Positions 1 to 62,372 of a stretch of DNA of 64,000 bases are shown here, one piece after another; the stretch's first letter is position 1, and every line of letters begins with the position of its first letter. The stretch comes from Prostheceraeus crozeri. Lineage: Eukaryota > Platyhelminthes > Polycladida > Euryleptidae. Under the pieces are notes generated by a model. The model saw only the letters and a program-made list of their open reading frames with translations, was not told where the DNA came from and searched no databases. Both the position numbers and the translations under genes were made by a program. Where the stretch lies: assembly GCA_907163375.1 (NCBI GenBank), contig CAJQUW010015599.1:186001-250000 (forward strand), in the 5' to 3' direction.

Positions 1-1218
1 GATGATGGTGAAATTGGCTATATTTTTGATTTGAACTTGGAATATCCTGCAAACATACATGATGACACTGCCGATTTCCCATTAGCGCCAGAGATGCAGA
101 CCGTAGAGCAGAATATGTTCTCAACTTATATGAAGGATCTACATAGGAAAATAAGACCAGACACTAAATTCAGTTCAACTAAAAAACTCTTGCTTCATCA
201 ATTCAATAGGGAAAATTATGTTGTTCACTATTCAATATTAAAATTTTATTCATCCATGGGTATGAAAATCACAGAAATTCACAGCAGTATAAAGTTCACA
301 CAAAAACCATGGTTGAGAACGTACATTGATATGAATTCACAAAAGAGACCTCAATCAAGTGCCAACTTTGAAAAGTCATTTAATAAGTTGAAAAGTAATT
401 TTTTATATGGTAAAACAATGGAAAATCTAAGACGAAGGAGAAAATTCAAATTAGTAAACAGCGTGGAACAATGTCGCAAATTATCAAATCATCCTCTCTA
501 TGTACAGCATAAGATATTTGATGAAGATCTAGTTGGTATGGAAATGTATAGACCTTCGATAATGTTGAATAAATTGATTTATGTTGGTCAGGCAGTACTT
601 GACTATACCAAATTGGAAATGTACCAGTTGTACTACAATGATTTGAAAAAATGTCCACTGATAAATAGAACGCGGCTTTGTGGAGATGATGCCGATAGTT
701 TTTTCCTATGTTTGTACACCTCACCATCTGTCCGCCTGGAGGATGTACTGCTATATTTTGGTGAAAAATTTGACTCTTCAAACTATGACAGTCATCACCG
801 ACTATACTCAACTACAAACAGAGCCAGATTAGGTTGTTTTAAGGATGAGTGTGCGGGAAAATTGCTTGAGGAAATGATCTTGCTAAAACCAAAAAATTTG
901 TATTTAATGAAATATTTAGATTCAACTTGTGATAGCATCAAGCGGGCAAAAGGAGTGAAGAGAGCTGCAGTTAAAAAATTACATCATAATGATTATAGGA
1001 CTGTGTACTACAGTGAGAAAGATACAAATGAGGAAATGACAATTATAAATACTAAAAATCACGTAGTCACTACAAAATCATTTAGAAAGCGAGGACTTTC
1101 ACTTTGGGAGGATAAACGCTGTTGGTTAAATAAAAATCTATCTCTACCATATGGACACTATAGTTTAGGACTTAACCCCACCTTCAAAGAGAAGGAGATG
1201 CCTTCCTGCTACAGGTGA
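1..1218 (+). CDS. Polinton DNA polymerase B, C-terminal part (element A)
   Basis: C-terminal part of a family B, protein-primed DNA polymerase of the Polinton/Maverick type, which copies the linear element from a terminal protein. The frame is open from base 1, so the true start and the exonuclease domain lie left of the window. Near the start is the family-typical stretch DLNLEYP...LAPE. Motif B is visible as NKLKSNFLYGKTMEN (about 361-430), and the motif C acidic pair as DADSFFL (about 694-720), where most relatives have DTDS. The end matches the usual Polinton polB tail (TTKSFRKRGLSLW). Some 390 codons are intact, unlike most neighbours. It is the outermost + strand gene seen here, followed by a second + strand block and then by a long - strand capsid gene block. 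Family assignment is secure; activity cannot be judged without the N-terminal half. Confidence 0.88.
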   Translation, partial: DDGEIGYIFDLNLEYPANIHDDTADFPLAPEMQTVEQNMFSTYMKDLHRKIRPDTKFSSTKKLLLHQFNRENYVVHYSILKFYSSMGMKITEIHSSIKFTQKPWLRTYIDMNSQKRPQSSANFEKSFNKLKSNFLYGKTMENLRRRRKFKLVNSVEQCRKLSNHPLYVQHKIFDEDLVGMEMYRPSIMLNKLIYVGQAVLDYTKLEMYQLYYNDLKKCPLINRTRLCGDDADSFFLCLYTSPSVRLEDVLLYFGEKFDSSNYDSHHRLYSTTNRARLGCFKDECAGKLLEEMILLKPKNLYLMKYLDSTCDSIKRAKGVKRAAVKKLHHNDYRTVYYSEKDTNEEMTIINTKNHVVTTKSFRKRGLSLWEDKRCWLNKNLSLPYGHYSLGLNPTFKEKEMPSCYR

Positions 1219-1409
1219 CGTAGAAGTTTAAGAAATTTAACAAAGCAAACTGACCAATCACTGCATTCCTGCGTAGTTGTGCTTACTAATATATAGGTAG
1301 ATTAATTATAAAATGAAATTTCTACATTTTCCCGATGAGTAGAAATAATTACTAAAACATAGGTAGTCCTACTATGAATTGAAGACGTAGCACTCAACAT
1401 CATTTCGAT

Positions 1410-2090
1410 ATGTTGAGATGTAAAATAGCAAGCTTTATGCAAACAAATAAATTTAGGTTTATATTTGAAAACATGCCTCATTACATTAGAACATGGAAAT
1501 TAAATGCTTCACAAAGCATTCACATAACAAATTCTAAGAAAGTAGTCTTTCGTCACTTAATAACAAGTGGTGGAAAACATCGTGGCGTTTGCATTAGCCT
1601 TGACGCATTATCTTCACTGAAAGACTTCGCTGATCTGATTGACAACCATAAGACACGGATGAAGATTCCGCTCGATCATAAGGTATGGATAAAGTGTGAC
1701 TCTACCGTCAAGCTATACGTCTGTTCACCAAAGAGAGAAGATATTGACTATCGATTTTTCCGTTTCAGTGACGTCACATGGAGAAACTTTACAAAAGAGA
1801 CACTACCACATATGATTTCATTCATTAAGGATGGAGGACATCAAGGGGATGGAAGTCGTGAATCGCATGTTAACTACAAAAGTAAACTCAAAACTCAATC
1901 TTCAAGAAATCGAGCGGAACATTCCCAATCGAAAGCAATGGTTATTAATAAAACACAAGATGAAGCCGACAACGAATCTACATCTGGGAAGACCCTCAAT
2001 GTTAACATGGAGGATACAGAGGAAGGACAAATATGTGACTATCCTATTATTTCCAAATGGAACAATCCAATGTGTTGGTGGCTTCACTGA
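1410..2090 (+). CDS. Hypothetical protein, possible PC4-like N-terminal domain (element A)
   Basis: Not firmly recognised. The first ~140 codons look like a compact domain: a beta-rich stretch (IHITNSKKVVFRHLITSGG) followed by KHRGVCISLDALSSLKDF and a helix. That arrangement resembles the PC4/p15 single-stranded-DNA-binding coactivator fold, where a beta sheet is followed by a GKKGISL-like turn and a helix. This is a weak, by-eye resemblance. From about codon 140 the ORF becomes low complexity (R/S/K/N/E) and overlaps by 260 bases a better-supported TBP-like reading frame, so its true end may be near 1835 with a frame change into that frame. It follows polB by 190 bases on the same strand. 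If both resemblances hold, this block would be a small transcription module of the element. Alternatively it is one fused gene with two frame breaks. Confidence 0.45.
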   Translation: MLRCKIASFMQTNKFRFIFENMPHYIRTWKLNASQSIHITNSKKVVFRHLITSGGKHRGVCISLDALSSLKDFADLIDNHKTRMKIPLDHKVWIKCDSTVKLYVCSPKREDIDYRFFRFSDVTWRNFTKETLPHMISFIKDGGHQGDGSRESHVNYKSKLKTQSSRNRAEHSQSKAMVINKTQDEADNESTSGKTLNVNMEDTEEGQICDYPIISKWNNPMCWWLH

Positions 2091-2401
2091 TGGTGATCTA
2101 CCATATCTACATTCTACACTGGAAAATGTACTTCGAGACTCATTATCTGAATGGAAAGTGAATGACAATGACTGTGCTATGTGAATTGAACTATCATTAT
2201 GATTTTCGTAAAGTCACATCATCAAATAATCTCACTTATGAAGTGGAACTATTTCCAGCAACACAGATGACTTACTGGCACCCATATCATGTTCATGTGT
2301 TCCATAATGGAAAGGTTGTGATAACCGGCATCAAAGACCTAAATGATGTTCCTCCCATCCTATGTGATTTGAGAAAAATATTTGTGAAATCTACATTGTA
2401 G
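1831..2401 (+). pseudogene. TATA-binding-protein-like protein, frame-broken (element A)
   Basis: Two ORFs (1831-2184 and 2162-2401, different frames) together look like the two direct repeats of the TBP core. Repeat 1 has VNSKLNLQEIERNIPN, matching the position of the TBP start (VN..KLDL..IA...RN), then LFPNGTIQCVGG, matching the TBP (I/L)F.SGK(M/V)..TG strand-turn. Repeat 2 has YEVELFPA, matching the very conserved YEPELFP of TBP repeat 2, then HVFHNGKVVITGIKD, matching FVSGKVVLTGAK. The two NG turns are 250 bases (about 83 residues) apart, near the usual TBP repeat spacing of about 90. The frame change falls between 2162 and 2184. TBP binds TATA DNA and nucleates transcription; an element-coded version could direct transcription of element genes, several of which have clear TATA boxes. 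Family call is by eye; a profile search would settle it. Confidence 0.62.
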
Positions 2402-2520: not shown

Positions 2521-2534
2521 AATAAAGCTTTATT
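2521..2534. terminator. Palindromic bidirectional poly(A) signal
   Basis: AATAAAGCTTTATT is a perfect 14-base palindrome that puts an AATAAA signal on both strands between two convergent genes: the + strand TBP-like block (ends 2401) and the - strand protease. The - strand signal overlaps the protease stop codon (2533-2535). One short sequence thus serves the 3' ends of both transcripts. Confidence 0.65.
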
Positions 2535-2994
2535 ACAAAACAGATTCAATATACTTTGTAAGAATTAGATCAATTTTATAGCAGTCTTTCGAAAAAAGTT
2601 GTAAAACACTTTTACAGTTATTTTTCAATGGTCTCTCGTTGATGAAATAGAGCACATAACCACCACACATGAGAGATACATTGCTTTGGAGTGGAAACGA
2701 TGTGACTTTCTTAATTGTCCAGGAGAACCTATTCATCCATAGTGCAATGTCATGCAAGCGAGGTAGATTAAGAGAGTCAAAATATTCGGCCACTTTATAG
2801 CGATTGATGTATACTGCAACCCAATGTTTACCAGGAAGATTGTTGCTATCCGTATTGATGATAAGCGAACAAGGATCGAAAGGAATTGAATTAGGTAAAT
2901 TATCTCTAGAAAAGACATCAAAAAATATTGTCTTGGAGTAGGGATGAGCATTCCCCATTTTCCTCAAGATTTCGGTGTTGCTTAGGTTACTCAT
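2533..2994 (-). CDS. Adenovirus-type cysteine protease (element A)
   Basis: Adenain-like (peptidase C5 type) maturation protease of Polintons, 153 codons, a usual length. The catalytic triad is visible: His in GKHWVAVYI (about residue 57), Asp in AEYFDSLNLP (about 73), and Cys in SLMCGGYVLYF (about 110). In adenoviruses and by analogy here it trims capsid and core precursors inside the assembling particle. The ATG is chosen because it overlaps the stop codon of the upstream capsid gene (ATGA at 2991-2994), which suggests the two are read from the same transcript. The 3' end shares the palindromic poly(A) signal. The ORF is intact although the capsid gene beside it is broken. Confidence 0.85.
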   Translation of the reverse strand: MSNLSNTEILRKMGNAHPYSKTIFFDVFSRDNLPNSIPFDPCSLIINTDSNNLPGKHWVAVYINRYKVAEYFDSLNLPRLHDIALWMNRFSWTIKKVTSFPLQSNVSLMCGGYVLYFINERPLKNNCKSVLQLFSKDCYKIDLILTKYIESVL

Positions 2995-4266
2995 CTCTGA
3001 TAGCTGACAGTTACGTTTCGCATTCTCGTTATTTGAACTTTGCTATCATAGATAGCATAAATGAGGCAAGTAATTGTTTTCTTCAAAGGTGACTCAAATG
3101 ATACCTCTAGTCGTAGATTACCAGGCTTTGTAACTCCTACGCTTTCACCACCTAGATCTGCATCTGCTGTGAGGTTGTACATAATGAAGAAGTTGCCATT
3201 CTTGTACATATCCATTGTAATTCCATTTGAATCATCTGTGTTAAACATGCTCAGTGCAGTGAAAGTAGAATCATATTCACGTGCAAATTTGCCCTCTTTA
3301 AAATTAGGCTCATAAGCTCTGCAAGCAACAAATATTCCATCCTGATAAAGTGCTAGTTTACTAACGTTAAAGTGTTGGAAATTAAATGGATTCTTTTCAG
3401 AAGCACCAATAAATGACTCATTTTCCACAAATGTGATATACACCGCCTTCGGCATCGCAATGGGAAAAAGATTTGGTTAGGCATGAGAGGATGATCCCGC
3501 ACCAATTGTGAAGTTTGTTAACACACTGTGATTAACTGGATATATTGCATTGCTTTTCCTGTCGCATGCTCGTTGATGACTGACGGGTTCATTGTTACTC
3601 TCCTTACAATGAGCACGGCGCTGCTTATGTTGATTTGATAGTTTGTAGCTCCAAAAGCCATTAACGCGAACTCAGGATTTCCACGAATAAATTTTATTTG
3701 CATTTTAACCTGTGATAGTAGATATCTAGATTGACAAAGGAAATCAAGATAGACAGGTCCTTTCAAATATAATTCCTTTGAATCTGCTGTCAATTCCATT
3801 CGTTTTTTAAACCTCTATTTGAAACCTCATCAAATTTCCCTTACTGATCATTATACCAGCCGGCAACTTGCAAGTGTGACTGTTTAGCTTCCTTCTGAAA
3901 TTGCGTCATTGTATTTATGTATGCTCCATAGGGATATGCTCGATCCCCTCCTTCAATCTGTTTGTCATTCAATATTAAATACACATCTGAGAATAGACTG
4001 GCAAAAGGAAGATTTGTCAATCCCACTTTATCCTTGGTTGAATCAATATTGGTACCATCAGTCTTCTTAATTTGTATACACAATTCTAAATCAATGGATT
4101 GACAGTCAATATAATCTTGAGGACTAGCAGGTATATCAAACTGAACAGGCTGTTGGTTACCATCGATATTTGTTGTGGGGACTATGTCTACAATAGTTGA
4201 GGTAATAATGTCAGTTTGATGAGGCGGTGAATCAAAGAAACACAAAGCCGAATTGATACTCAGCAT
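2991..4266 (-). pseudogene. Polinton major capsid protein, broken (element A)
   Basis: Double jelly-roll major capsid protein of the Polinton/adintovirus group (often annotated in invertebrates as F54H12.2-like). Three ORF pieces in order: 4266-3841 (N-terminal; FDIPASPQDYIDCQSIDLEL, and SVYL-type strand LFSDVYLILNDKQIE), 3799-3518 (ELYLKGPVYLDFLCQSRYLL and QMKFIRGNPEFALM, highly typical of the family) and 3455-2991 (PKAVYITFVENESFIGASEKNPF). A TAA at 3841-3843 ends the first piece, a frame change lies just after it, and another stop plus frame change separates pieces two and three. Total span (about 425 codons) is close to a normal capsid protein, so this is a full-length gene that decayed in place. 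It is followed with a 4-base overlap by the protease. Confidence 0.85.
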
Positions 4267-4276
4267 GGTATTAGCT

Positions 4277-4858
4277 TTACAAATATGTTGTCTTCCTTCG
4301 TTTTGACTTGTTTCCAGTCGCTGTGGAATTTCGTTTGCGCTTTCTTGCTTTCACACGACGTCTTGATTTAGAACGTGCTGCTCTGGTGGGCTTTTTACTT
4401 TTCCTACGCCTTTGCTTAGTAACTCGGCCTGATCCAACTTGTCTTGACTTCCTACGTTTCTTCCGAACTGTGCGCCTCGTCTTTGTTAAATCATCTAATG
4501 CGTCTATGGCAGATTGCTGTGCACGGAATTTCATGGATTCACCGATATCCTCCCCTTGAAGTGCATCAGCTACAACATTTGCACCAAAGTCTAAAGCTCT
4601 GTTTCCAACCCGCTTCTTATGTGGGTCATAAGAAAAGTGATATTCATCTGCATCAAGGTAATCTACACCTAACTCATTTAACTTTGCGCACAATTCAGAT
4701 GGCATTTTCAAGCTTTCAATGTTCAAATTAACTCTTTTTACCAGTTCACTAGAAGTAGTCAATTCATCACCCACAATGTCTTCGCTGTATACGTGGATAT
4801 CCCATGAAGCGTTTGTTGATGCTTTGAGTTTAGAAGAGAATAATTGAACCTTATATGT
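4277..4858 (-). CDS. Basic core-like protein with Arg/Lys-rich tail (element A)
   Basis: A protein whose N-terminal two thirds are mixed acidic/helical (e.g. MPSELCAKLNELGVDYLDAD) and whose C-terminal ~75 residues are extremely basic, with runs such as RTVRKKRRKSRQVGSG and KARKRKRNSTATGNKSKRRK. Such tails bind DNA and act as nuclear signals; the position between penton and capsid genes fits a DNA-packing core protein like those of adenoviruses, but no family is proven. The frame is open back to about 4858 with no ATG in that stretch; the first codon in the commonly called ORF (4774) is GTG. An ATG at 4863-4861, directly after the penton stop, is out of frame by one base, so a one-base indel at the start is likely. 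SGRV-like Gly sites in the tail could be protease sites. Confidence 0.6.
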   Translation of the reverse strand, partial: TYKVQLFSSKLKASTNASWDIHVYSEDIVGDELTTSSELVKRVNLNIESLKMPSELCAKLNELGVDYLDADEYHFSYDPHKKRVGNRALDFGANVVADALQGEDIGESMKFRAQQSAIDALDDLTKTRRTVRKKRRKSRQVGSGRVTKQRRRKSKKPTRAARSKSRRRVKARKRKRNSTATGNKSKRRKTTYL

Positions 4859-4863
4859 ATCAT

Positions 4864-5829
4864 TTAATTATTTAATTCTGTCAGCAAAGGTGCGCTTTCA
4901 AGGCCTTTAAACATCCCAAACATTTCAGATCCGAATTCAATAACAGCGGACTCAGACCTTTTCAATGGTGTCTTTTTAGTAAAAACAAGAAATTCTACCT
5001 CCGTTTCAACAGTAAATAAAGTTACTTTCTCTTTCTTATATTCACACGTCATCAAAGTTTCTGGCACTGATCCTTGAATCTTTCTTGCAACGTCTTCAAC
5101 ACTTCTAATAACTTCAAATTGATTCTTTACGCGGATGCTCCTTTTTTGTAATGCATACAACGGCACGATTCTACATCGAAAATCAGTGACTTTCCTCTCC
5201 GAATTCCACCCACGTCCATTGTACCAATACCTTGATGAGAACGTTGTTCTGGAATACCCTAAAGTATGACTCAAATCCTTACCCAATACAAGAAGTACAT
5301 GCTTCCCTTCCTTCAACAATTTTGTTGACCCCTTTATGACTGGTCTGTAGAATTTATTCAAAGTCAGCTTAAAGAGATCATTTATTCGTTGAAATATTCT
5401 ACCGATTTCCTTTTCTGTGTCCTGCAAGCTCATTGTGGTAACTTTAGAATCAAAAGTAGACGTTGTAAATGACTTTTGAATTTTAATCATGTTTTGGACA
5501 GATGGATGAGATGTTGAAAAAGAATGTAAAGTTAGATGATGAAAAGCCCATGTACCATGCAGACTATTGTGAAATATACGAAAACAATCATCCTTTTCTC
5601 GCACTTCTTTATGTAATTCAAAATAGTTGTTTTTTAGCAAACTGAAATCGTTGTAATAAGTAATTTCAGTTAGAGCAACTTCATGGGGTCCATGCAGAGT
5701 AATTGGATTAGCAAATTCAACAGAGTATTGAGATGGTCTGTTGTCTGGGAATATCTTTGGGTTGCTATTGCTTGGAAGAATGATGTTGAAGTTAGTAGAC
5801 ATGTTGACCTCATGTATGTAAGAAGTCAA
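4864..5829 (-). CDS. Penton-like minor capsid protein (element A)
   Basis: Minor capsid (penton-type, single jelly-roll) protein of Polintons, 321 codons. The N-terminal signature is clear: FNIILPSNSNPKIFPDNRPS, then QYSVEFANPITLHGPHEVAL and TEITYYNDF, matching the usual pattern of F.V.LPSN....FP.N, a beta strand ending in P(I/L).L.G..EVAL.EI.Y. A second Met (5802, MSTNFNII) sits closer to that signature and may be the true start. The reading frame is intact. It ends five bases before the core-like gene region and lies downstream of the integrase, all on the - strand, consistent with a late structural block. In related viruses this protein forms the vertex capsomer. Confidence 0.78.
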   Translation of the reverse strand: MTSYIHEVNMSTNFNIILPSNSNPKIFPDNRPSQYSVEFANPITLHGPHEVALTEITYYNDFSLLKNNYFELHKEVREKDDCFRIFHNSLHGTWAFHHLTLHSFSTSHPSVQNMIKIQKSFTTSTFDSKVTTMSLQDTEKEIGRIFQRINDLFKLTLNKFYRPVIKGSTKLLKEGKHVLLVLGKDLSHTLGYSRTTFSSRYWYNGRGWNSERKVTDFRCRIVPLYALQKRSIRVKNQFEVIRSVEDVARKIQGSVPETLMTCEYKKEKVTLFTVETEVEFLVFTKKTPLKRSESAVIEFGSEMFGMFKGLESAPLLTELNN

Positions 5830-5842: not shown

Positions 5843-6994
5843 TTAAAAGCTACGAGTGTCTCCCACCTCTACATTTTGCAGATCCTGGTGCGTTATCCAG
5901 CTATTGAATGAATCAGGATACCCTTTCCATTTAACTAGATATTTCCGTTGATTGCCATGACCTTTCTTTCTAATTATTTTATCAATCACATAAACCTCGT
6001 CACTTCTGTCTACGACTTGCAATTCATATGAGTAAAATTTTCCTTCAATTGGATTACCATGGTAATCTATCAATTTGTACATGATGGGTCTAAATTTTCT
6101 ATTTACTTCATCTATAAAAAACTCTTCTTCAGTCCAATTAGGTAGACAACCCTTCTCAAATGTAGACTTAACCTTCGAAATCCGAACTCTATCACCAACA
6201 TTTATTTTCTTTTCATTGGAAATATTTTCGCTTTCTTATCATACAATCGAAGCCATACATCCATTGCATTATCTGGGGTAACATCAATTGGTCGCATCTT
6301 AATAATACTATGATAGCTTTCATTGTAATTCTTAACAAATTTCTGCAATTCATCTAGGCAAACATGTGTCTTTTTTTGCAGTAAAATAGCGCCATATTTT
6401 CGTTTTCAATGTGCGATTAAACCTCTCAACCATGGCAGCTTTATAAGCACTTTTAACGCTAAACAATTCCACATTATGACTTTTGAGGAGACTTCGAACA
6501 TGAGAGTTCTCAAATTCCTTGCCTTGATCGGTCTGTATTCTTTGTGGAACACGCCCCTCATCGAAAATACTCTGAAAAGCCGCTTCAACTTCTGGTCCTC
6601 GTTTAGATTTCAGCGCACGTGCCTAAGCATAGCGAGATAAAATATCTATTACGGTCAAGATGTATTTATAGCCATCATTGTACTGTGATATCTGTTGCAT
6701 GTCAGCCAAGTCCGCTTGCCATTAACTATCTATATTGTTAGCAACATATTTTTTCGTTGGAAATCGCTTTCTCGCATTTTTGTGAAGAGTGTAAGTCGGT
6801 TGACTCCTAAACCACTTCTTGACTTTCTCTATTCCCACACCTGCTGCACGAGCTAAAACCTCCGGACGACTGAAACTTGCGGGGTGATTTAAGTCGCAAT
6901 AAATCTCCCTCAGCTTCACGGCTGTACTCATCGTCTTTGTTCTGATTTGCACGCGTATTACTTGCACAGGAACTGCTAACACAATTGATATCAA
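5843..6994 (-). pseudogene. Polinton integrase with C-terminal chromodomain, broken (element A)
   Basis: Retrovirus-type DDE integrase of Polintons that inserts the element. The N-terminal part (6994-6722) has the family pattern YCDLNHPASFSRPEVLARAA ... VKKWFRSQPTYTLHKNARKRF. The frame then meets a TAA at 6722-6724, just before the first catalytic Asp region, and another stop near 6623; readable core pieces continue to about 6400 with the conserved ERFNRTLK-type segment encoded around 6415-6440. The last ORF (6082-5843) is a chromodomain: EVYVIDKIIRKKGHGNQRKYLVKWKGYPDSFNSW. Probable start is the Met at 6931 (MSTAVKLREIY). At least two in-frame stops and frame changes mean the copy is dead. 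Chromodomains in integrases are thought to guide insertion to chromatin marks. Confidence 0.82.
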
Positions 6995-7686: not shown

Positions 7687-7775
7687 TTTGTTATGTAGTC
7701 AATTGTACATACTCCTCTTGAGGAATGACTACAATCTTTGAATACGACATGTTTGAAAATAATAAGGCAACAAAG

Positions 7776-8516
7776 ATACTTTACTGTTGGTACCAAAAAG
7801 AAATGCACTCGGGAACTTCACTAAGAAAAGATAGTTTTGCCCCTGCTCACATAAAATCCAATTTTGTCACTAGTAGTATTAATAATGTTACTAAAAGATT
7901 CAACAACGAACATGAATTGAAGAAATCCCTCAATCAGTTGGACATAAAATTCAAAAACAACGGGTTCACCCACAATTTCTCTAGAAAATCTAAGTCTAGA
8001 AATAAAATAGTCTCGCAGAATACTAGTAACTTAAAATTACGTTTCATCAATGATCATACAGACAATAAAATTCGTCACTTAATAAAAAAATACGAATTAC
8101 CCGCGAAGTTGATTAGCACCCCAAACAAATCACTTTATTGTAGTTTAAAAAATAAAACCAAAAAACTAAAACATGAAGATTGTGACATTTGCACTCGGCT
8201 GCCTGCCAAAAGCAAATGTACAGACCGTTTCCTAATTTATAAATTCACTTGCAAAATTTGCAATCAAATTTATGTTGGCCAAACCTGTAGACCTTTCAAA
8301 TTCCGCTTCATGGAACATAAATGTGCGATCCAGAAGCAGGACAGGTCTAGTGCTTTAGGTGAACATTCGCAGCATGGCCTGATATCTATTGATGACTATG
8401 ACTTAGACATCCTCGAAAAGTGCACTGACGCGCTAGACACGAGACTGTCAGAAGCGAGACACATAAAGATGATTTGTCCCTCACTGAATCGCAAGCATGA
8501 ACTGACCGTATTTTAA
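7776..8516 (+). pseudogene. Penelope-like reverse transcriptase tail + GIY-YIG endonuclease
   Basis: The frame opens in element A DNA (ATG at 7725) but the retroelement part begins after the left duplication. YCWYQKEMHSGTSL and the following region correspond to the end of the palm and the thumb of Penelope-like reverse transcriptase. The C-terminal ~100 residues are the linker Cys cluster (EDCDICTRLPAKSKCTD) and a GIY-YIG nuclease: YKFTCKICNQIYVGQTCRPF, then FRFMEHKCAI with the conserved Arg and later a Glu (LSEARHIKM). Truncated at the 5' end: no catalytic RT motifs. The GIY-YIG portion itself has no stop. Such nucleases nick the target to prime reverse transcription. Confidence 0.75.
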
Positions 8517-11515: not shown

Positions 11516-11575
11516 AAAAGCTGCACAATAGCAACCAATCACAGACACGCATGATGATTCATCATGAACGATATA

Positions 11576-12999
11576 CAGGGTGGATACTATGCCTTGTCCG
11601 ATATATTTTAAGAAAAGCGACATGTTTTCCAGCTAATATAATAGCATTGAGTAAACTAATATGCATCATAGGTATCAGAAAAATCATGTTAAAATTATAC
11701 TTACAATAACTTTTCAAAATGGACGCCATTTTGTTCCACACAAAATTCACATCGATGAATGAAATTCCTACATGATTTTGTCATCATAGATGCGAGTTTA
11801 GGAATGTCCTCGAGTACTTTTTCAATTTGCAGTTTCAGTTGTTCATTGCTTTCGAAGCTGAATGAATACACTTTATTTTGGACATAACCCCACAGAAAGA
11901 AATTGCAGATGGTGAGATCGGGAGATCTGGCGGGCCACGGAATTGGACCACCCCTTCCAGTTCATCGGCTGTTCAACCGATCGTTAAGCAAGTTCCTTGT
12001 CTGGGTACTAGCATTGGGTGGAGCGCCATCTTGTTGAAGCACAGAGGTGCGGTGAGACCGGCAAGCAAGAACAGGGAACACTTTTGCGGTCAGAATGTCA
12101 CAGTAGCGATCACTTGTCATGGTTTCTTCACTGAAGTCCACTGCTATAATGCCATGAAATGATATCGCGACGAATGCGGTCAGGCCCTTTGATCTTATGA
12201 GTATCTCATGATGATTGTCTGTCGCGTAGTAGAAATCATTGTGATGATTCGACTCGACATGTTTAACTCGATTCATTTAACCCGGACCGTACATGTTAAA
12301 TGTGCACTCATCGGAGAAGATGATTTTGTTAGACCATGAACACTCTTCACTGCTCCTTCGAAGGATGGTTTGTCAAAAACAAGTCTTGACTCTTCGTCAT
12401 GGGCGAAAATTTGATGCATCTGATGAACCTTGTATGTTTTATGTCCATTCTCCTAAAGAGTTCTTTCCCGACTGTCCTATGTAAAATCCGTGACATCGCG
12501 ATGTACGAGGGCTGTCCATAATGGCGTTTACGATCGAATCCTCTTCTCATTCAATACGCGAGAAGCACGATTTCCTCAGCTGGATCGAGGTAAGATGGAA
12601 CCGGTATTGAGGAACTTGTTGGACCATTGTCTGATTGTTCTTCCATCAGGTGCTTCTTCGCCATTTTCTTCAAAGTCGCGTCTTCTTCCTTTTTCGCTGT
12701 TTCCGTAAGTTATACAGTAAGCAACAAGTCAAGGATTTCTCTCGAAGCTTTCTATTTCATCATAAAGTGAAGCACCTGCATTGAGCGGCGTATATCATAA
12801 ACTCGTAGGTGCGATTTGAAATTTTGAATAAAGTTAGTAGAATTTGAAATCGCAAACATTATTGGATGATTGCGAACCGTAAGAAATTCCAAATTTAAGT
12901 GTAAACATAGATGTCTTATGCGACTATAAGCATTGAATTTGAATAAGACATTTCATTATTCATATCATAGAAATCGGACAAGGTATGGTATCCACCCTG
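11576..12999 (-). mobile_element. Mariner-type transposon, complete ends, TA duplication
   Basis: Inverted ends: CAGGGTGGATACTATGCCTT at 11576 and its near-complement ending at 12999 (CAGGGTGGATACCATACCTT when read on the - strand), continuing to match through TGTCCGAT. TA flanks both sides (11574-11575, 13000-13001). Length 1424 bases, normal for mariner. The element holds a decayed transposase on the - strand and interrupts the 3' end of a UBA-RING gene. Confidence 0.85.
11715..12550 (-). pseudogene. Mariner transposase, decayed
   Basis: Tc1/mariner (IS630) DDE transposase in several frames. 12550-12347 matches the DNA-binding-to-catalytic linker (SRILHRTVGKELFRRMD). Just after it are the first catalytic Asp context (IIFSDECTF) and 12276-11962 with SVLQQDGAPPNAS, the second Asp block. 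The third block, in another frame around 11925-11950, reads as WPARSPDLT. Multiple frame breaks show it is inactive. The helix-turn-helix region further upstream is not readable. Confidence 0.75.
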
Positions 13000-13494
13000 T
13001 ACAGTGACTGTTGAAATTATTTCTCCATCACAAAGTGGACAAAATATAGTTTCCAAGAATACATAGCATGTAGAACACATGACAAAATGAGAACATGGTA
13101 ACAAGAGGAGGGATTTTTCCCGTCCAAAACACCTAATGCAGTTCCGTTCACATTATAATTCAAACGTATATATTTCTAATTTCTTTATGAAGTCACTTTC
13201 ATTGATAGAACACTTCGATAAATCAATTGAAGGTTTCACTTTTTTTATCTCCGTTTCAGAAAGTTCCAATTTCATCCTCCTAATTTCACTGTCTTTATAA
13301 TGTAGCATTGAGAAATCTTCTATCCAACTACGATCCAAATTACCATTCATGGTATGCTCATCCAGATCCATTAGTCGTTCAACTAAATCACCAGCTTTGA
13401 TATTTTCATTTAGATATGTAACAGTTTCTATAGCATTTAGCGAATAACCAAGGTTTCTTGCAACAATCCATGAAATTGGGAAACAAGCCATCAA
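12916..13494 (-). pseudogene. IAP-like UBA + RING protein, cut by mariner
   Basis: 13494-13153 encodes a UBA-like segment (NLGYSLNAIETVTYLNENIK then AGDLVERLMDLDE), as found between BIR and RING in inhibitor-of-apoptosis proteins, followed by a charged helical linker. An in-frame TAA at 13153-13155 separates it from a RING finger in the same frame: C..C at the start (CERNCIRCFG), LLPCSHFVMCSTC, and FCPLCDGEI. The last ~24 codons of the ORF (GGYHTLSDF...) are mariner end sequence; the true C-terminus lies beyond 11575. No BIR domain is seen. RING proteins of this type are E3 ubiquitin ligases; viral versions block cell death. It lies on the same strand as, and next to, the element A genes and may be the outermost gene of that element. 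Confidence 0.65.
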
Positions 13495-50871: not shown

Positions 50872-51318
50872 ATGAGCAGAATAAATGAGTTTTTTAAATT
50901 ATATGGAACGCAATCAACTACAAATTTTGATGTAAAGAAAATCGCAAATCAATTAGGAATAAAGAATTTTCTTGTTCTAATGAGAGACGAATTACAATTG
51001 ATCAAAAATAAGCCAACAATAACTATAAATTTCATAACAAATCTTCGCACAACAGATGAAAAAGGAGTACATTGGTCTGCATGTATCTTTAATAAAAATC
51101 AAGATAATTTCTATTTCGACTCTTATGGACTTCCACCTACAAATGAAGTCAAAAAATTACTTGGCATTGGAACTTATAAAACATTTCAAATTCAAAAACC
51201 GGGAACTACTTACTGTGGTCAATTATGTCTTTATGTTTTATTTAAATTACGAAAAGGAGTACCATTTCTTGATATTATGTTAGAATTGAACAAGGGAATT
51301 TCATTCCCGAAACGTTAG
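50872..51318 (+). CDS. Adenovirus-type cysteine protease (element B)
   Basis: Intact 148-codon maturation protease of the adenain type. Triad: His in DEKGVHWSACIF (residue ~67), Asp in FYFDSYGLPP (~84), Cys in TTYCGQLCLYVLF (~124), the last being the typical YCGQL of arthropod-type Polinton proteases. The ATG follows TTTTTTATTATAAA, a start-proximal AT motif seen before many genes here. It is convergent with the integrase, stops 19 bases apart. Only weakly like the element A protease, so the two elements are from different lineages. Confidence 0.88.
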   Translation: MSRINEFFKLYGTQSTTNFDVKKIANQLGIKNFLVLMRDELQLIKNKPTITINFITNLRTTDEKGVHWSACIFNKNQDNFYFDSYGLPPTNEVKKLLGIGTYKTFQIQKPGTTYCGQLCLYVLFKLRKGVPFLDIMLELNKGISFPKR

Positions 51319-51336
51319 TTCCAATAATAATGATAA

Positions 51337-52629
51337 TTAAAAATCAGTTCGTTGTAATTCATTTTGATAAAATCGTCCTCTGATATCTTCATCATCTAAA
51401 TCTTTGATTTCGTAAGTAATCGGATAAGTTTGGTTTATTTTACAAACTTCAAATATCTCTTTCGTCCAGTATCCGACGAAGCCCTTTTCAAATTTATTCT
51501 TATACTTAAATATTCTAACTCTATCACCAATTTTAAATTTCGGGTTAAGTTTCTGCAAATTCAGATTACTCTCATTCGAATAATTATTCTCGAATATTTT
51601 CTTTCGGATTAAATCAGGGTCGTCAGAAGCATTCTTTGGGGTTTCTTCAATACCAGAATGAACTTTATTATTGTACTGCTCTACAATTACTGGTAATATC
51701 TTCAACCATTTCTGATTTCTTTGCTCAGTAAATTTCTTGAATAATTTATTTTTTAACGTCCGATTGAATCTTTCTATCACTACAGCTTTTCCTGCATTTT
51801 CAGTTGAATAAACAGTTTCAAATAGTGGCTGAACGTTTCGGTTATAAAATTCCGACCCTTTATCAACAAACAATTTTTTTGGCTTTCTACTAGTTTCTTT
51901 AAATATTTCTTCAAACGCATATTTAACTGATAGACCACTTTTATTTTTTAAAGGCTTCACCCAAGCGTATCGTGTATGTAAATCTATAACGGTCAATGCG
52001 TACTTAAACCCTCCTTCATTCGGCATATGAATAAGATCAGCACTCCAAATATCATCTTTATTAAATACTTTTACTTTCAATAAATATTTAGGCCTTCTAT
52101 ATTCTTTATGGATTTCAGACGCGTATGTTCGAGCGTTGCTCTCAGACAGCTTTGCTGACGTTTCATTTAAACCTTGACCGAATAATATTTTAGCTTGTAA
52201 AGCTTTCTTAACAAACATTCTTTCAATTTTTTCTCTAAATGTAGGATTTTGAATACTATCTAATTCTTGAATCATCTTCTTATCAGCTTCATGTCGAGAA
52301 CTTAGATGATGATTTCGATAAGCTAAATCATGCCTGTAAGCTGCGGCATCTACTCTATTTATTGGTTCTTCACCTGGTTTCGGATTATTATTCTCATCTA
52401 GTCTTATATCTAATCGAGTTCCTGGACCGGTATATGAGTGTCCAGGAAGATGTTTTTCTTTCGAATATTTACTCCAAATAAATCCAGGAAAGTTTTCTAA
52501 TGTTTTTTGTATGTCGTTACCTTCACAAATTTTACAATTTGAATTTTCATTTTTGTTTAATAGATAATTTAATAAATCTAAATTAGCAATTTTTAATTTA
52601 ATTAAATTTTCGGAATTTGTAGAATTCAT
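51337..52629 (-). CDS. Integrase with N-terminal phospholipase A2-like domain (element B)
   Basis: One intact 430-codon ORF joining two activities. Residues ~55-125 match the parvovirus VP1-type phospholipase A2 domain: HLPGHSYTGPGTRLDIRL (calcium loop YxGPG), PINRVDAAAYRHDLAYRNH (catalytic HD with downstream Tyr) and SRHEADKKMIQEL. In parvoviruses this domain opens endosomes. Residues ~190-345 are a DDE integrase core: DDIWSADLIHM, ALTVIDLHTRYAWVKPLK, KLFVDKGSEFYNRNVQPLF and AVVIERFNRTLKNKLF. A C-terminal SH3-like domain follows (KFKIGDRVRIFKYKNKFEKG, GYWTKEIFEVCKI). No chromodomain, unlike element A. The usual N-terminal zinc-binding region of Polinton integrases is not obvious; the PLA2 part is in its place. 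ATG preceded by a run of TTTTAAA. All key residues present. Confidence 0.85.
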   Translation of the reverse strand: MNSTNSENLIKLKIANLDLLNYLLNKNENSNCKICEGNDIQKTLENFPGFIWSKYSKEKHLPGHSYTGPGTRLDIRLDENNNPKPGEEPINRVDAAAYRHDLAYRNHHLSSRHEADKKMIQELDSIQNPTFREKIERMFVKKALQAKILFGQGLNETSAKLSESNARTYASEIHKEYRRPKYLLKVKVFNKDDIWSADLIHMPNEGGFKYALTVIDLHTRYAWVKPLKNKSGLSVKYAFEEIFKETSRKPKKLFVDKGSEFYNRNVQPLFETVYSTENAGKAVVIERFNRTLKNKLFKKFTEQRNQKWLKILPVIVEQYNNKVHSGIEETPKNASDDPDLIRKKIFENNYSNESNLNLQKLNPKFKIGDRVRIFKYKNKFEKGFVGYWTKEIFEVCKINQTYPITYEIKDLDDEDIRGRFYQNELQRTDF

Positions 52630-52671
52630 TTTAAAAGATAAAATAAATGTTTTACCTAAACGAACCTTGTT

Positions 52672-52703
52672 CAGAGGCTTTAGCCGATCGGACCAAAGGT
52701 CCT
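52672..52703 (-). terminator. Two hairpins just after the pX-like gene
   Basis: GGACCAAAGGTCC (52690-52702) and GGCTTTAGCC (52675-52684), GC-rich in a very AT-rich setting, directly past the stop of the - strand pX-like gene. Outer bases AACCT..CAG and CTGAGGTT can extend the first stem. Possibly a transcript-end signal; also part of a family of similar hairpins in this element. Confidence 0.45.
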
Positions 52704-52710
52704 GAGGTTA

Positions 52711-53193
52711 TTACCTTATCATACTAGGACTTAGATATATTCCAGAACCATCTTTAGTTTCTTTAATTTCAATTAAATCGTCAACATTGTGGAGAATATT
52801 TTTAAGAACTCGTTTTCCTTCATCAACTAATTTTAATTTACTAATGAAATTATCTACTATTCCTTCTACCCTAGCAACTTTTTCTAACTCTCTATTATGA
52901 CGTTTTTGTTCTTCTAATGCTGCCTTCTCTGATTTATTTTTATTTACTGCTTGGACAATACCAGCTGTCCCGCCTGCAACACTTCCTGCTGCTGCTATAC
53001 CTCCTATTATTGGAGGAATTAATGGGAGAATCCCGCCATTCTTTTCTTCTTGTAATTGAATATTCTCTATCATTGTTTTACTTATGTAATACTTCTTTTC
53101 ATTAATCGTAATAGTTTTAGGGGTATTTTTGTCAACAATATTACGTAATTTTAATTCAACAGTTTTATTATTATTACTTTTCGCTTGCGACAT
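52711..53193 (-). CDS. pX-like/membrane-active minor virion protein (element B)
   Basis: Intact 160-codon ORF. A hydrophobic Gly/Ala-rich stretch (NGGILPLIPPIIGGIAAAGS, VAGGTAGIVQAV) is followed by a charged helix (NKNKSEKAALEEQKRHNREL) and ends in GSGIYLSPS. That layout is usual for a small Polinton/adintovirus virion protein likened to adenovirus pX or to membrane-lytic peptides; NGGI and GSGI are possible protease sites. Role by analogy. ATG directly after TTTTTTTATTAAAA. Hairpins follow its stop codon. Confidence 0.65.
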   Translation of the reverse strand: MSQAKSNNNKTVELKLRNIVDKNTPKTITINEKKYYISKTMIENIQLQEEKNGGILPLIPPIIGGIAAAGSVAGGTAGIVQAVNKNKSEKAALEEQKRHNRELEKVARVEGIVDNFISKLKLVDEGKRVLKNILHNVDDLIEIKETKDGSGIYLSPSMIR

Positions 53194-53206
53194 TTTTAAT
53201 AAAAAA

Positions 53207-53310
53207 ATTTTAAGTTACCAAGAATTTTTAATCTATTCTAGTTATGAATAAATTTTAAGTTACCATAAATTTTTAATCTATTCTAGTTATGAAAAATTTT
53301 AAGTTATGAA
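53207..53310. repeat. 45-bp tandem repeat, two and a bit copies
   Basis: TTTTAAGTTACCA... and AATCTATTCTAGTTATGA recur with period 45 in the gap between the capsid gene end and the pX-like gene start, i.e. in the likely pX-like promoter. Confidence 0.75.
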
Positions 53311-53339
53311 AAAAAAATTAATTAATCGACGAAGTCTTG

Positions 53340-53349
53340 GGCTTTAGCC
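53340..53349 (-). terminator. Hairpin overlapping the capsid stop codon
   Basis: GGCTTTAGCC, identical to the hairpin at 52675-52684, overlaps the TAA at 53344-53346 of the major capsid gene. Confidence 0.4.
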
Positions 53350-54677
53350 TATCCTAGCCATCCTTCCATTAAGAATTTCAATAGAATATTTTACATCTTC
53401 TAGCAATAAACCATAAGCCATCAATGAAGTTGTGGAATCTTTCTTTTCAATATTAATTGTTACATCACAACCAGTCTTGATAATATCTTCAGATTGTGCA
53501 CTTAAATCGAAACAGAAAACAGGATATAAATGTCTCCAATCTCCAGGAGTTAATTGTGGTTCAACTCCAAATTCTATACAAAGATTTCGATAAGAATCAT
53601 ATCCTTCCATAAATTGATTATTGGTATCATCGAATCTTAATGGATCAATTGGATATCGGGTTTGATTTAATGAAACTTGTAAACTTCGAGTTGTATTAAT
53701 ATGAAAAAGATTATTGTTCTTATCAAAACTTGGAGAATTATTTCTTTGAAAAGTTAGTAATAAATATCTTGGAGTATTTGAAGTTCTAGTAAAATGCCAG
53801 TTAAATCTTTGTTCGGAGAAAGTTACCGAACTAGCAGTACGTTTTAGAAAATTTACTGGAATTGGTTTGCTAGTATTTAATCTTTTTGCAATAGCTGTTT
53901 CAATCTCTAAACTAGGAGTAATATGCTTAATCCACCATTCAAGTCTATCAATTTTTAAATATGCTTTTTTCCAGTCTTACCAAAAAAGATTAATTCATTA
54001 TTTGCTGTACGATGAATTATTAATTTAAATTTTAATTGATATGATATTTTATCATAATCTAAATATCCGAATAATGGAGACAATGACCAATTTACTGTCT
54101 GTTTACTTTTCTTGTTAAACTCACGTCTTTCTTTATATGCACTATTGTTTGTTTTATTTAAATGTTTTGCAATATTTTCTAAATCTTTCGCAATTCCTGC
54201 GGCATCTGTTCCAGCGTGAGTTAAATCATCTATAATTATACCATCATTAGTATCAGGAAACCAACCTTCGATTTCATACTTTTTATTATTTTCACCAATT
54301 GTTACAAATCTAAGCATTGTATCAATTACGCCTGGAGAATCACTTATTGTTTCTATATTTTGAGTTGCAACATCTAAGCGCATTTGTGTAAATAATCTTG
54401 GAAAGAAATTATTCTCTAGTGCAATATTATCGGTATCTGGTAATGGTGTTGTAAAATTGGCATCACTATACAAAGAATATTCACAGTGTAAAAATGAATC
54501 AGATAAATATAAATAACTCTGCTGATTATCAACTTCAAAAATTAAATCACCTCCAGTATTCACTCTACTGGAAGATCCGGGATTCATAGCAATTCTTATA
54601 TAGTCATTCTTTTTTTGATTGTAACTAACACCTGGTGGTTTATCTAATTCAAATTCATTTTCGATATGCGAAGACAT
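53344..54677 (-). pseudogene. Polinton major capsid protein, frame-broken (element B)
   Basis: Double jelly-roll capsid protein. The N-terminal piece from the Met at 54677 (MSSHIENEFELDKPP) to 53955 has GDLIFEVDNQQSYLYLSDSF, NNFFPRLFTQMRLDVATQNI (typical fold landmark) and WSLSPLFGYLDYDKISYQLK. The open frame reaches back to 54719 but the Met at 54677 follows the usual AT motif. A frame change near 53955 and another before 53610 lead to the C-terminal piece 53610-53344 (LTPGDWRHLYPVFCFDLSAQ). Middle part 53611-53954 is readable in another frame. About 445 codons in all. Breaks are in short A/T runs. Confidence 0.8.
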
Positions 54678-54788
54678 TTTTATAAAAAATAATTTGACTT
54701 TTTGTTTTTTCTCACACACAGAAAAAATTTTAATAAAAAAATTTTACTAAAAAAATTTTGCTAAAATAATTTTACTAAAAAATATATT

Positions 54789-55286
54789 TTAGAATTTTGC
54801 TAGACCAGCTCCGCTGCTCACGCCATTGCCTCTTATTTCTTCAATTGATTTTTCATTATTTTTATTTTCATTATGTTTACTATCAGACGGTGCTCCGCTC
54901 CTCAAGGTTTCACCCCCCACAGCTATGTTAGCAATTTTGTTTTTTGTTTCCTCTGAAAGTTTTTTTAATTTTTTTAGCTCTTCAGAATCATTCCTAAGTT
55001 TACGAATAGCTTCTAGTTGTTTTAATTCGTTTTGAGACTTAACAGCATTTGATATTGCACTAGCTGTACTACCTATAGCAGCTGCTCCTTTTGCAGCAGA
55101 TGTAATCAAATCTTTATTATTTTTAATTAAGTTAACGATACTTCCAATACCAGAAAAGATGCCAGCTCCTTCCGTGTGAATTGTTTCTCTATTATCATAA
55201 TGATAAACAGGATTCATACGTGGTTCATGAGCAATTCTTTGATTTGAACCAAAATGTTTAAGATTGTGTTTATAAATTATAGGCAT
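54789..55286 (-). CDS. pVI-like minor virion protein (element B)
   Basis: Intact 165-codon ORF. N-terminal MPIIYKHNLKHFGSNQR is a frequent start of this Polinton protein. Next comes a Gly-bounded amphipathic helix (GAGIFSGIGSIVNLIKNN) and an Ala-rich segment (SAAKGAAAIGSTASAIS), as in adenovirus protein VI, which disrupts membranes during entry after protease cleavage. GAGIF looks like a cleavage site, as does GNGVSSGAGLAKF at the C-terminus. The C-terminal third is charged and helical. Two GC-rich coding patches (about 54800-54830 and 54885-54915) stand out from the AT-rich background. Confidence 0.65.
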   Translation of the reverse strand: MPIIYKHNLKHFGSNQRIAHEPRMNPVYHYDNRETIHTEGAGIFSGIGSIVNLIKNNKDLITSAAKGAAAIGSTASAISNAVKSQNELKQLEAIRKLRNDSEELKKLKKLSEETKNKIANIAVGGETLRSGAPSDSKHNENKNNEKSIEEIRGNGVSSGAGLAKF

Positions 55287-55326
55287 TTTTTAGGAATAAA
55301 TTTGACTTTTGGGAAAAATATTTACG

Positions 55327-56215
55327 TTAGGATTTACATTTGTGAATGTCCAACAACTTCGTGATAACTTTAAGAATTTTCTTTTGCACTTTATCTATTG
55401 CGTCAAGTAGCGTGTGATGTACTTTAATTTCTTTTCTATTGACTTGCATTTTCTCCTGATTCATCTTCAACGCCGTTTTAAGAGCATTTAACTTAATTTT
55501 AAGAACATCTAGTTGTCTTTTAACAGAATCTAACTGTTCTTTATTTTCTTTAGAGTTTTCTTGTAAATTTTTTCTTTAATTCATTTTCTAAATTATTTTT
55601 AAGAGTTTTCATTTTATCAACTTTTTGATTAAGCGAGTTTACTTCATTTATTATTCTATTCATCTTTTTCATTTGTTGAGTAATTTTAGAACTTAATTCA
55701 TCAACACTTTTTTGGAATGTAGCTTGTAACTGCTTTAAATTTTTTTAAATTCTTTCAGGAAGTTTTTCTATTTCATCTTCTAGTCGTTCTTTTAACATTT
55801 TTATCTGATGTTTATTTTTAATGACTGCAGATTTTAAATTTATAGAAAGTAATTTTAAAATTTTTGATTGTTCAGAAATCTTTTTAAAAAGTTTTGCTAT
55901 ATCTGCTTCTAGCTCTCTATCCTTTTCATCAAGTTTTAATAATTTTTCGTTTAATGATTTGTCATTAAGTTTTAGCAACTTCAATTCATTCATCAGTGGA
56001 GCCAAAACATCGTTTATATATTTTTCTCTTAAGTCATTGATTTGTGTATCAACATATTGTTTATTTGTTAACTCTGTATTTTGTTGCGGAAGAATAGAAA
56101 GATGCAATGGACCAGATAAAACGTCTCCAGTTTTCATGATATAATTTTCTATTTCTATTTCTAATTCACGATTATTCGGGATATATGCACCTCCACCAAC
56201 ATTTGGTAACATCAT
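55327..56215 (-). pseudogene. Fibre-like protein with tail-fibre motif and long coiled coil (element B)
   Basis: From MMLPNVGGGAYIPNNRE, residues ~28-60 read YIMKTGDVLSGPLHL then TELTNKQYVDTQINDL. That is the (M/T)GD(V/M)(M/L)SG.L.L...P......KQYVD pattern of phage tail fibre N-termini. Afterwards nearly all is heptad-rich coiled coil (LDEKDRELEADIAKLFKKIS). The ORF stops at 55745-55747 (TAA in an A-run), but the same frame continues as coiled coil to about 55570, and after a frame change to a TAA at 55327-55329. Total about 295 codons, probably a trimeric stalk. It has divergent orientation to the gene at 56262, sharing a 46-base promoter gap. Confidence 0.65.
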
Positions 56216-56261
56216 TTTTTAACAATAAAAAAATAAAATTTTTTCTAATAAAAATAAAAAA

Positions 56262-57563
56262 ATGGATAAAGCAAATTTAAAAAAATTATATTCGTCCGCA
56301 TCATCCTGTTCTTCTTATTCGACGAGATCAACGGGATTTGAAAATAAATGTTTTGATAATAATAATAATAATAATGATAATACTACTACAAATCCATGTA
56401 TAGATGTAAATCTTTTGTTTGAATTACAAGCAGAAATATTTAGAGAACAGACTAAAGGTTTACCTTATAGAAACTAACTATTGTATTTTTCCAGGTGATC
56501 CATTTATAAAATTTATGGAGATTGTAAGCAAATATAATGATGTAGCTTATGTGGAATTAAATAAAGAAAATATGGTTATAATAGGTCATAATAATGTTTA
56601 TGGTTTTATTAGAGCAGTATTACCAATTAGTAATACTGATTGGATAGAAACTAAAATTATCAATTATATCAATATTAAAGATTTAGTTAAAAAATTAAAA
56701 TCGTTTTCAAAAGAAAAAATAAGATTATTTGTTGATGAACAAAATCAATATAATATTCACATAGAGAGTAAAAAACATAATGAAGAATTATTATGCCAAG
56801 TTTATTATAGAGATACAATTTATAAACAAGAAACATTAGAAATGCCGCAAAGATATGATAATGATACTTATATAGGATTACATTGAAATTAAAATATTAA
56901 TTTATTAAAATCTTACATAAATGGCTTAGCTCAACAAGAAAAAATTTATATGTGGACAACACCTTATACTATTAAAATGACCACAATCATAATCATAATA
57001 ATCCTCTGAATCATATTGAAGAATCTGATAAAGATGATGATGATTCTGAAACATCTGAAAAAGGTGTAAATGGTAAAAAAGATTACAAAAATATTAGTAA
57101 TTATAAAAATTCAAGTGAAGAAAAATTTATATCTCAACATGATATTAATACTACATATAATCAAAATTTATCTAAATTTCATTTTCTTACAATTGAAAAT
57201 AATAATGATGGAATAGTTGAAGATACTGTTAGACAACTATGTGTCGGGTCTACAAAATTTAAATTAGGATTTACTTCTAATCAATTTTAAATTTTATCAT
57301 CTCTAATAAAAAGTAAAAATGATTCAGATTATGGTGGTGTTATTAAATTTTCCAAAAGAGAGCAAAGACCAATATTTTTCTCTATTATATTATTATCAGA
57401 TAAAAAATGTAATTTAGAGTTAGATATTCCAATAAGAGAATGGTATCCTATCAGGGAATGGCATCCTATACCAAAAAGTGTCATTTATGATGTTGAAGAA
57501 ACAATTTATGATGATGATGAAGAATCAATTGATGATGATGATGATGAAGAATCAATAGTTTAG
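56262..57563 (+). pseudogene. Unknown replication-side gene, possibly sliding-clamp-like (element B)
   Basis: Pieces in order: 56262-56477 (low-complexity start with Asn run), 56419-56886 (DPFIKFMEIVSKYNDVAYVE, LNKENMVIIGHNNVYGFIRA, INIKDLVKKLKSFSKEKIRL), then frame changes, a low-complexity patch and about 57050-57563 (STKFKLGFTSNQF, in-frame TAA at 57288-57290, GGVIKFSKREQRPIFFSIIL, KKCNLELDIP), ending in an Asp/Glu tail. The alternation of helices and beta strands recalls the two-fold repeat of PCNA-like clamps: a first helix followed by a strand ending in a hydrophobic turn, a linker, and a C-terminal strand pair with P(I/L)....; this is a by-eye suggestion and could be wrong. Its place next to polB fits a replication accessory role. 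Confidence 0.35.
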
Positions 57564-57588
57564 TGAAAATAAATTTAAATTATCTTTT

Positions 57589-57654
57589 GATAAAACGTTA
57601 TATGATAAAACTTAATATGATAAAACGTAATGTGATAATACTTAATGTGATAAA
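57589..57654. repeat. 15-bp tandem repeat upstream of polB
   Basis: Four to five copies of GATAAAACGTAATGT-like units with period 15, about 120 bases before the polB start. Could bind an element regulator; function unknown. Confidence 0.7.
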
Positions 57655-59668
57655 GAAAATAAAATAACTTAAGAACGTGAAATATATAATAATATAAAAT
57701 AACTCTCAAGACCTTGATATTAGAATGTTTATATCTAAAATTAAAACACAATTTTTTCTTTAAAAAAATAAAAAAATGGAAAATACCAAGTTTTATTGTG
57801 TCTTATGTAAAAAAAAGTTGCAAACAAAAAGAAGTTATCAATCTCATTTAAATAGTAAATTGCATTTACAAAATGTAGATCGAGTTGATGAAGGAAATAT
57901 ATTAAAATTAAATAGTTATAAAAACTATCTAGAAACATTGCCTACTGTTATAAAAGTTAAAAAAATGTTTGATGATTAATCACATTCAGAATATAAAAAA
58001 GTTTTTAATAGTGAAGATGAACATGTCCGAGATGGAAGATATTTATTTAGAGATACTGATGAATTTAACGAAATAGATGAATTAAACGAAATTAAAAAAC
58101 ATATGAAGCTGAACGAACCGATGAAGCCGTAACAGATATAAAATATTTATTTAATGAATCGGTTGAACATAATGAAACCGATGAAACTTTTTCTGATACT
58201 CTAACCAACTTTTATAATATACTTAAGAAATCTTTCAAATGTTATATGAATGTAGAAGTACTTTATACAAAAAATGGACCTGATGGAATTCCTGAAGAAA
58301 TAATACAAGGACATTTTACAAATTCACAAGAAATTCATAATGTAAATGATATACAACCCATATTTGAACAAATGATACTTAAATTAGAAAATTGTATAAT
58401 TGAAGCCCAGTTACGTGAATCTGGTTGGAGATTAGTTAAAATACTATCAAGAAAATAGTAATTGATAAATATAAAAATAATACTGGTGGTAGTTATGTTC
58501 TTTTACCTTTCAGTTCACCACAAATAATCAACATAAAAAATGAAGATGATTATTGTTTTCTGTGGAGTATTATAGCACATTTACATCCTGCAGAATATCA
58601 TAAAGAAAGACTAAGTCATTACAATAAAGAAGAATACATAAATGAATTTGATCTTTCTGATGGCTTACATGAATTTCCATATGATTATAATAGGTTGAAA
58701 AAGTTTCATAAAAAGAATAAAAATTTAATAGAAGTAAATGTTTTTGAATTAAATGTGAATTGGTAAAATTACTCCACTTTACTCAGATTCAAAAAAAATT
58801 TATTTGAATAATAAAAATTTATGTCAATCAGAAATAGTATATAATGATAGAGGAAATTACATGCATCATAATATTTTTTACCAAGGAAATATAATATGTA
58901 CTGAAAAATTTCAAATTGTTAAAACATTATCACCAATCATAATCATAATAATTATAAAGGACGTAATGATGATTATGATTATGATTCCGATTATTTATCT
59001 TTATCTTTAGAATATCAACAAAAATTACAAAATTTAAATGAAATTTTACAAAAATGTAAAACAGATTATCAACAACAAACAAAAATATTAGTACAAGAAT
59101 ATGGCCATAAATATCAAAATAAGATAGAAACGATTCAAGAATTAAATAAAGACAATAAAGAATTAAATAATGAAGAAAATAAAGAATTAAATGAATGTTT
59201 AAAAAAATGTCAACAACAATATAAAGAACAATATAATAATGAATATGAACAACAGCTACAAATATTAAATCAAAATTATCAACAGTCTGAAAAAGATTTA
59301 CAAAGACAAATTGATGAAACACATGAAATATATAAAGATAAATTTGAAAAACTAGAACACACAAAACAATCAGCACAAGCGAATATATTATATTATCAGG
59401 GTCATTTTATATTGTGTAAAGATGTTTCTATATTTACAAAAACTTCAGATAATACAAATTTTCCTTGTCTTCAATGTATGACAAGTTTTAGAACTAAAGA
59501 AGAAATGAATAGACATTTGGAGAATTGTCAACAAAACGAAGCAGTTGAAAATACTTTTCCTAAAGATGATTATTTATTATATAATAGACATTATTTGAAA
59601 AATAAAGTACCCTTTACTATTTATTGTGATTTCGAAGCATATAATGTTAACATGACACAAAATCACGG

Positions 59669-59705
59669 GACATCGGAGATGTCTTCCAGGGCTTCGCCCG
59701 ATTCT
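59669..59705 (+). repeat. In-frame GC-rich hairpin insert in polB, copy 1
   Basis: GACATC GGA GATGTC (59669-59683) and GGGC TTC GCCC (59689-59699), encoding TSEMSSRASPD. Lies just after the Exo I motif, between otherwise AT-rich codons. Second copy at 61117. Confidence 0.7.
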
Positions 59706-62370: not shown

Positions 62371-62372
62371 TA

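Follow-up and report, generated by a model that had tools for sequence, protein, structure and literature searches.

A 64,000-nucleotide stretch of the Prostheceraeus crozeri genome (contig CAJQUW010015599.1, positions 186,001 to 250,000; hereafter the window) begins with a Polinton that carries a gene for a TBP-family protein, a distant homologue of TATA-binding protein (TBP), and this gene belongs to the element. The window's copy has a broken reading frame and is a relic, but the gene is open in many of its sister copies. Computation shows two TBP repeats that are predicted to form a saddle, a gene that is the element's own, and an overlap with an open reading frame (ORF) of predicted PUR-like fold. 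We consider the best explanation of the whole, with a probability of about 0.6, to be a Polinton-encoded TBP homologue through which host TFIIB and host RNA polymerase II are brought to the element's genes.

A sequence-only reading had seen two TBP-core repeats spread over two ORF pieces, with their turns 83 residues apart and a frame break in the gene, and all of this was borne out. Scanned separately, both pieces (Table 1) scored above the curated PF00352 cut-off of 22.9 bits, piece 1 narrowly, and no other Pfam family reached E ≤ 10 with either; on rescanning, all 8 relatives and both window pieces were again above the cut-off. The two FPNG/FHNG phenylalanines are residues 74 and 157 of the intact relative P0027, which reproduces the spacing of 83. 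The start at 1831 is backed by P0027, identical to piece 1 at 59/110 positions, and by a second intact relative, P0022, while the break near 2160 is real, as P0008 is unbroken at that site (74/78 identity to piece 2). Against PDB sequences, piece 2 alone retrieved solved TBPs (best 1.2e-5), with 35 of 39 rows being TBPs or TBP-containing entries, one of them labelled only ECU04_1440; piece 1 alone found no TBP there. A profile made only from relatives (23 rows, leaving out the window pieces, P0008 and P0016) recovered pieces 1 and 2 at 1.1e-34 and 1.1e-22 in a search of 1419 six-frame segments of the window, with none of the remaining segments at E ≤ 1 and no reversed segment at E ≤ 10. The TBP signal in the window is far beyond chance. 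Eukaryotic and archaeal TBPs gave similar scores (57-69 bits), and the Polinton TBP is ~15-23% identical to the solved eukaryotic and archaeal members of PF00352. Structure prediction, proposed earlier as a check of the saddle fold, gave two tandem repeats forming a saddle in the model of P0027, the intact relative used in place of the window's broken copy.

Copies of the gene were sought across the host genome (2.05 Gb, 14165 contigs). From the piece-2 search (best 150 of 9862 candidates) we retrieved 30 loci, including the window itself (L021, 100%); the other matches listed were 95-97%. Homologues of the polymerase and the protease flank TBP in all 29 sister loci, confirming the earlier placement of the gene inside a Polinton, and the TBP frame has at least 189 codons in 22 of the 29. 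The search with P0022 listed 148 matches free of internal stops among its best 150, and in all 30 loci retrieved from it TBP forms a single frame, 189 codons or longer, and both flanking genes are present; L055, although in this set, has an internal stop in its matched stretch, as only one other of the 150 does. The two retrieved sets overlap in one copy (contig C6410). As the match lists are ranked best first and hold the best 150 only, they favour intact copies, and these counts indicate abundance and not survival rate. In piece 2, ~5% of residues differ between the window copy and the common copies. With TBP broken, several other genes fragmented and ORF1 open, the window copy looks like an older relic, and we claim no function for it.

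Other subfamilies were reached with PF00352 itself (best 150 of 10982 candidates scored; 20 loci of 3.2 kb each retrieved), and in all 16 of the 20 loci that belong to them, homologues of the polymerase, the protease or p154 (Table 1) stand beside TBP. The loci L001-L003 and L009 read as exons of the host TBP and of a TBP-related gene, with no query Polinton proteins nearby. L001 and L003 are the ordinary host TBP, and L002 and L009 (C3829) belong to a further TBP-type gene of the host, probably the TBP-related factor of animals. That a fragment of host TBP was inserted by chance beside a Polinton, for which the broken window copy and nothing else could speak, is refuted by the 29/29 sister loci and the 16/16 loci of other subfamilies, and the host genes lie elsewhere without Polinton neighbours; we give it practically no credence.

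The TBP start lies 0.6 kb past the end of the polymerase gene, with ORF1 between them and the protease gene convergent. Most homologues of ORF1 have their start at the position corresponding to ATG 1473, and six ATGs stand between 1473 and 1831, upstream of the TBP frame. The N-terminal ~119 residues of ORF1 are predicted to be PUR/Whirly-like and the tail disordered; the best Foldseek match of the model, to the PUR-alpha / MRP1-MRP2 / Whirly fold, is weak (E 2.6e-3). We do not assign ORF1 to the PUR family, because no PUR or Whirly Pfam family matched any of 8 ORF1 members and nothing in PDB sequences came below E 1.3. The ORF1-TBP overlapping pair recurs in several subfamilies, and in 3 loci the ORF that overlaps TBP is itself a match to the ORF1 profile. 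In two loci of the 234-amino-acid type (L012 1150-2025, L016 1153-2028), the PUR-like frame and TBP are fused as one frame of 292 amino acids. L017 has two tandem frames upstream of TBP (764-1138 and 1152-1811), both matched by the ORF1 profile, and L013 has the same tandem frames on its minus strand.

Functional sites given in PMC7221094 were compared by alignment column, with columns matched by motif. The two acidic TFIIB-contact positions of the C-terminal stirrup are Glu in 26/26 rows and Glu or Asp in 24 and 2 of 26. The main DNA-contact Phe is conserved in each lobe (25/25 and 26/26), and the stirrup Phe is present in 26/26. Three of the four DNA-contact Phe positions are kept, and the fourth, the repeat-1 kink position, is Pro in 8/9 rows, which, with its location on a mobile element, sets the Polinton homologue apart from eukaryotic and archaeal TBP. 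A repeat-2 position that is Asn in standard TBP is Thr or Ser in 21/26 rows. In the N-lobe helix, the site of basic contacts with regulators, members of the window's branch have 0-3 Lys/Arg, versus 5 in the Encephalitozoon cuniculi stretch. Synonymous and nonsynonymous changes in repeat 2 are suggestive only of selection: in the window's family they number 4.5/4.5, 3.5/2.5 and 2.5/1.5 over ~50/184 sites; over ~58/211 sites they number 4/4 and 3/1 for the 234-amino-acid type but 3/6, 4.5/10.5 and 3.5/8.5 for the 180-amino-acid type, the last close to neutral.

These residues bear on two other roles. A decoy that ties up TFIIB or sits on the host's TATA boxes, and so depresses host transcription, would fit the retained TFIIB-contact residues and the changed N-lobe helix of the window's branch, but the DNA-contact Phe is kept in both lobes and we saw no sign of inhibition, which makes this improbable. 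A DNA-bending protein serving replication, packaging or integration and not transcription would agree with a gene that overlaps a PUR-like ORF and lies beside the polymerase gene; the conserved TFIIB-contact glutamates, however, would have no obvious use there, and we hold that role to be improbable as well.

The sequence-only reading had also credited the element's genes with strong TATA boxes, and in that form this was not upheld. TATAWAW occurs at most 150 nucleotides upstream of 2/12 ORF starts in the window and of 3/12 in the younger copies (polB, ORF1 and p248); the nine remaining starts of the younger copies lack it, two of the nine having shorter upstream sequence. At a density of 4-7 per strand in stretches of 6.5-8 kb, ~1.3 sites would be expected. 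TATAWAGG occurs 7 times in the window versus 4.45 expected, which is no enrichment, and the best shared 8-mer in a search for a late-promoter motif (1 mismatch allowed, 6/8 upstreams) was equalled by 2/40 random sets. The TBP could be a stage-specific factor: host TBP would read early TATA promoters, and the element's TBP a different core sequence in front of the capsid-side genes, which lack TATA. The altered DNA-contact positions speak for this, as does the distribution of TATAWAW, which precedes polB and ORF1 but is missing ahead of protease, p427, p160, p525, integrase, p226 and ATPase. The TATA difference is itself small, however, and no late motif rose above random, so we regard this alternative as unlikely.

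Returning to a TBP that directs host TFIIB and RNA polymerase II, the monomer would bind and bend the element's promoter DNA, its conserved YExELFP stirrup would dock host TFIIB, and this docking would bring host RNA polymerase II to the element's genes; the PUR-like partner might, as a guess, bind the strands separated at promoters or during replication. A scan of 9 younger-copy proteins and 20 window frames, which covered part of the element, met neither TFIIB nor any RNA polymerase family, and this result together with the retained TFIIB contact suggests that the host's TFIIB and polymerase II are used. Host factors acting on TBP through the basic N-lobe helix may lack control in the window's branch, where it is lost, and the element may be partly independent of host promoter recognition. 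Several points weigh against this reading. The TFIIB scan covered part of the element, and the window's copy is broken. The TATA preference may differ, given the repeat-1 Phe to Pro and repeat-2 Thr/Ser changes, and 3/12 starts against ~1.3 expected is no clear TATAWAW enrichment. Loss of the helix is restricted to the window's branch, since the basic residues are retained outside it (P0029 has 4 and P0032 has 6 Lys/Arg; by eye, the 180-, 209- and 234-amino-acid subfamilies of the host genome have several). More tentatively, and at rather less than even odds, several Polinton lineages may carry a minimal promoter-selection module, TBP overlapping a PUR-like nucleic-acid-binding protein, that redirects host TFIIB and RNA polymerase II and escapes host TBP control at least in the window's branch; this would be a half-independent transcription system, unlike that of large viruses with their own TBP and TFIIB.

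The remaining genes of the first element are listed in Table 1. In the younger copies, with the order pieced together from four separate stretches of four copies, p150, polymerase, ORF1 and TBP are followed on the opposite strand by protease, p427, p160, p525, integrase, p226, ATPase and p248. The younger polymerase is a frame of 1299 amino acids (L054 2143-6042) with C2H2 zinc fingers at its start and an endonuclease-VII-like match just under the cut-off; the window's polymerase piece has no Pfam match of its own. The rve core and chromodomain share a single frame in L051 (2.1e-12 and 1.8e-9), Pfam matches of the C48 protease and A32-like ATPase are all below cut-offs, and p427 and p525 have none above.

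Table 1. Features of the first Polinton of the window
Feature	Position	Strand	Evidence
DNA polymerase, C-terminal part, running off the window's left end	1..1218	+	Aligns with the second Polinton's polB at 1e-37, 30% identical over 381 columns
Candidate TATA-like sites preceding the ORF1-TBP unit	1290..1313	+	TATATAGG at 1290, TATAAAA at 1307
ORF1, open from ATG 1410	1410..2090	+	TBP frame overlaps at offset +1, from 1831 to the ORF1 end
TBP, first frame piece (117 amino acids), repeat 1 / N-lobe	1831..2184	+	PF00352 6.9e-5, 23.1 bits
TBP, second frame piece (79 amino acids), repeat 2 / C-lobe, past the frame break near 2160	2162..2401	+	PF00352 2e-7, 31.2 bits
Cysteine protease, C48-like, convergent with TBP	2533..2994	-	PF02902 16.3 bits, below the 20.7 cut-off
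Pieces p154 and p141 of one 427-amino-acid gene (p427) of younger copies	2991..4266	-	Both within L051 601-1884
Fragments of the younger-copy genes p160 and p525	4277..5829	-	Comparison with younger copies
Integrase pieces: chromodomain 5843-6082, rve core 6353-6622	5843..6622	-	PF00385 9.9e-11; PF00665 6e-5, below cut-off
ATPase piece with P-loop	9174..9377	-	Weak P-loop families only; 93% identical to a 211-amino-acid L051 frame

The first element shares a related polymerase, an rve and chromodomain integrase and probably a C48-like protease and a P-loop ATPase with Polinton/Maverick elements and adds the TBP gene. A 263-amino-acid frame with a weak GIY-YIG match below cut-off lies among its genes (7725-8516), and an insertion bounded by 29-nucleotide inverted repeats, mariner-like by eye, lies inside or at the edge of the element (11574-13001). 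A second, AT-rich Polinton (50872-63999) has a polymerase (polB, matching PF03175), an ATPase, a C48-like protease related to that of the first element (7e-6) and an integrase frame that also matches the phospholipase A2-like domain PF08398; the relatives-only profile found no TBP in its six-frame segments.

No relative was found in scans of viral_contigs (polB, ORF1, P0008 and two TBP alignments), of genome_contigs (two TBP alignments) or by tblastn of phage records (ORF1, P0027 and polB); PADLOC matched no family, and PHROGs gave weak rows of unknown function only. In the literature, TBPs are described from giant viruses (PMC11464507, PMC12085832) and from putative mirusvirus-derived elements (PMC10675990). 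Almost all viruses with a TBP also encode a TFIIB-like protein, none being found in poxviruses, and viral TBPs are argued to have mostly lost the TFIIB contact, the C.L3.2 glutamate being kept in only ~40% (PMC7221094). The Polinton homologue differs from these large-DNA-virus TBPs, including the poxvirus initiation factor, in keeping that Glu in 26/26 rows and in having no TFIIB in the proteins scanned. The TBP family, viral TBPs and Polintons are each already known; what is new is a Polinton with its own TBP, of which we found no earlier report in the available open-licence literature (including PMC12220804 and PMC11071308), though it may be mentioned elsewhere.

A basal transcription factor inside the element, with many open copies in one genome, makes the way in which the host reads Polinton genes directly testable, and the recurring ORF1-TBP pair is a good system for studying overlapping genes. 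Most double-stranded DNA viruses of eukaryotes are considered to have Polintons as their ancient ancestors (PMC7805220). If the proposed role is true, the element would have a TBP of viral type in which the contact to host TFIIB is retained, in contrast to larger viruses, for which orthogonal pairs of TBP and TFIIB have been proposed (PMC7221094).
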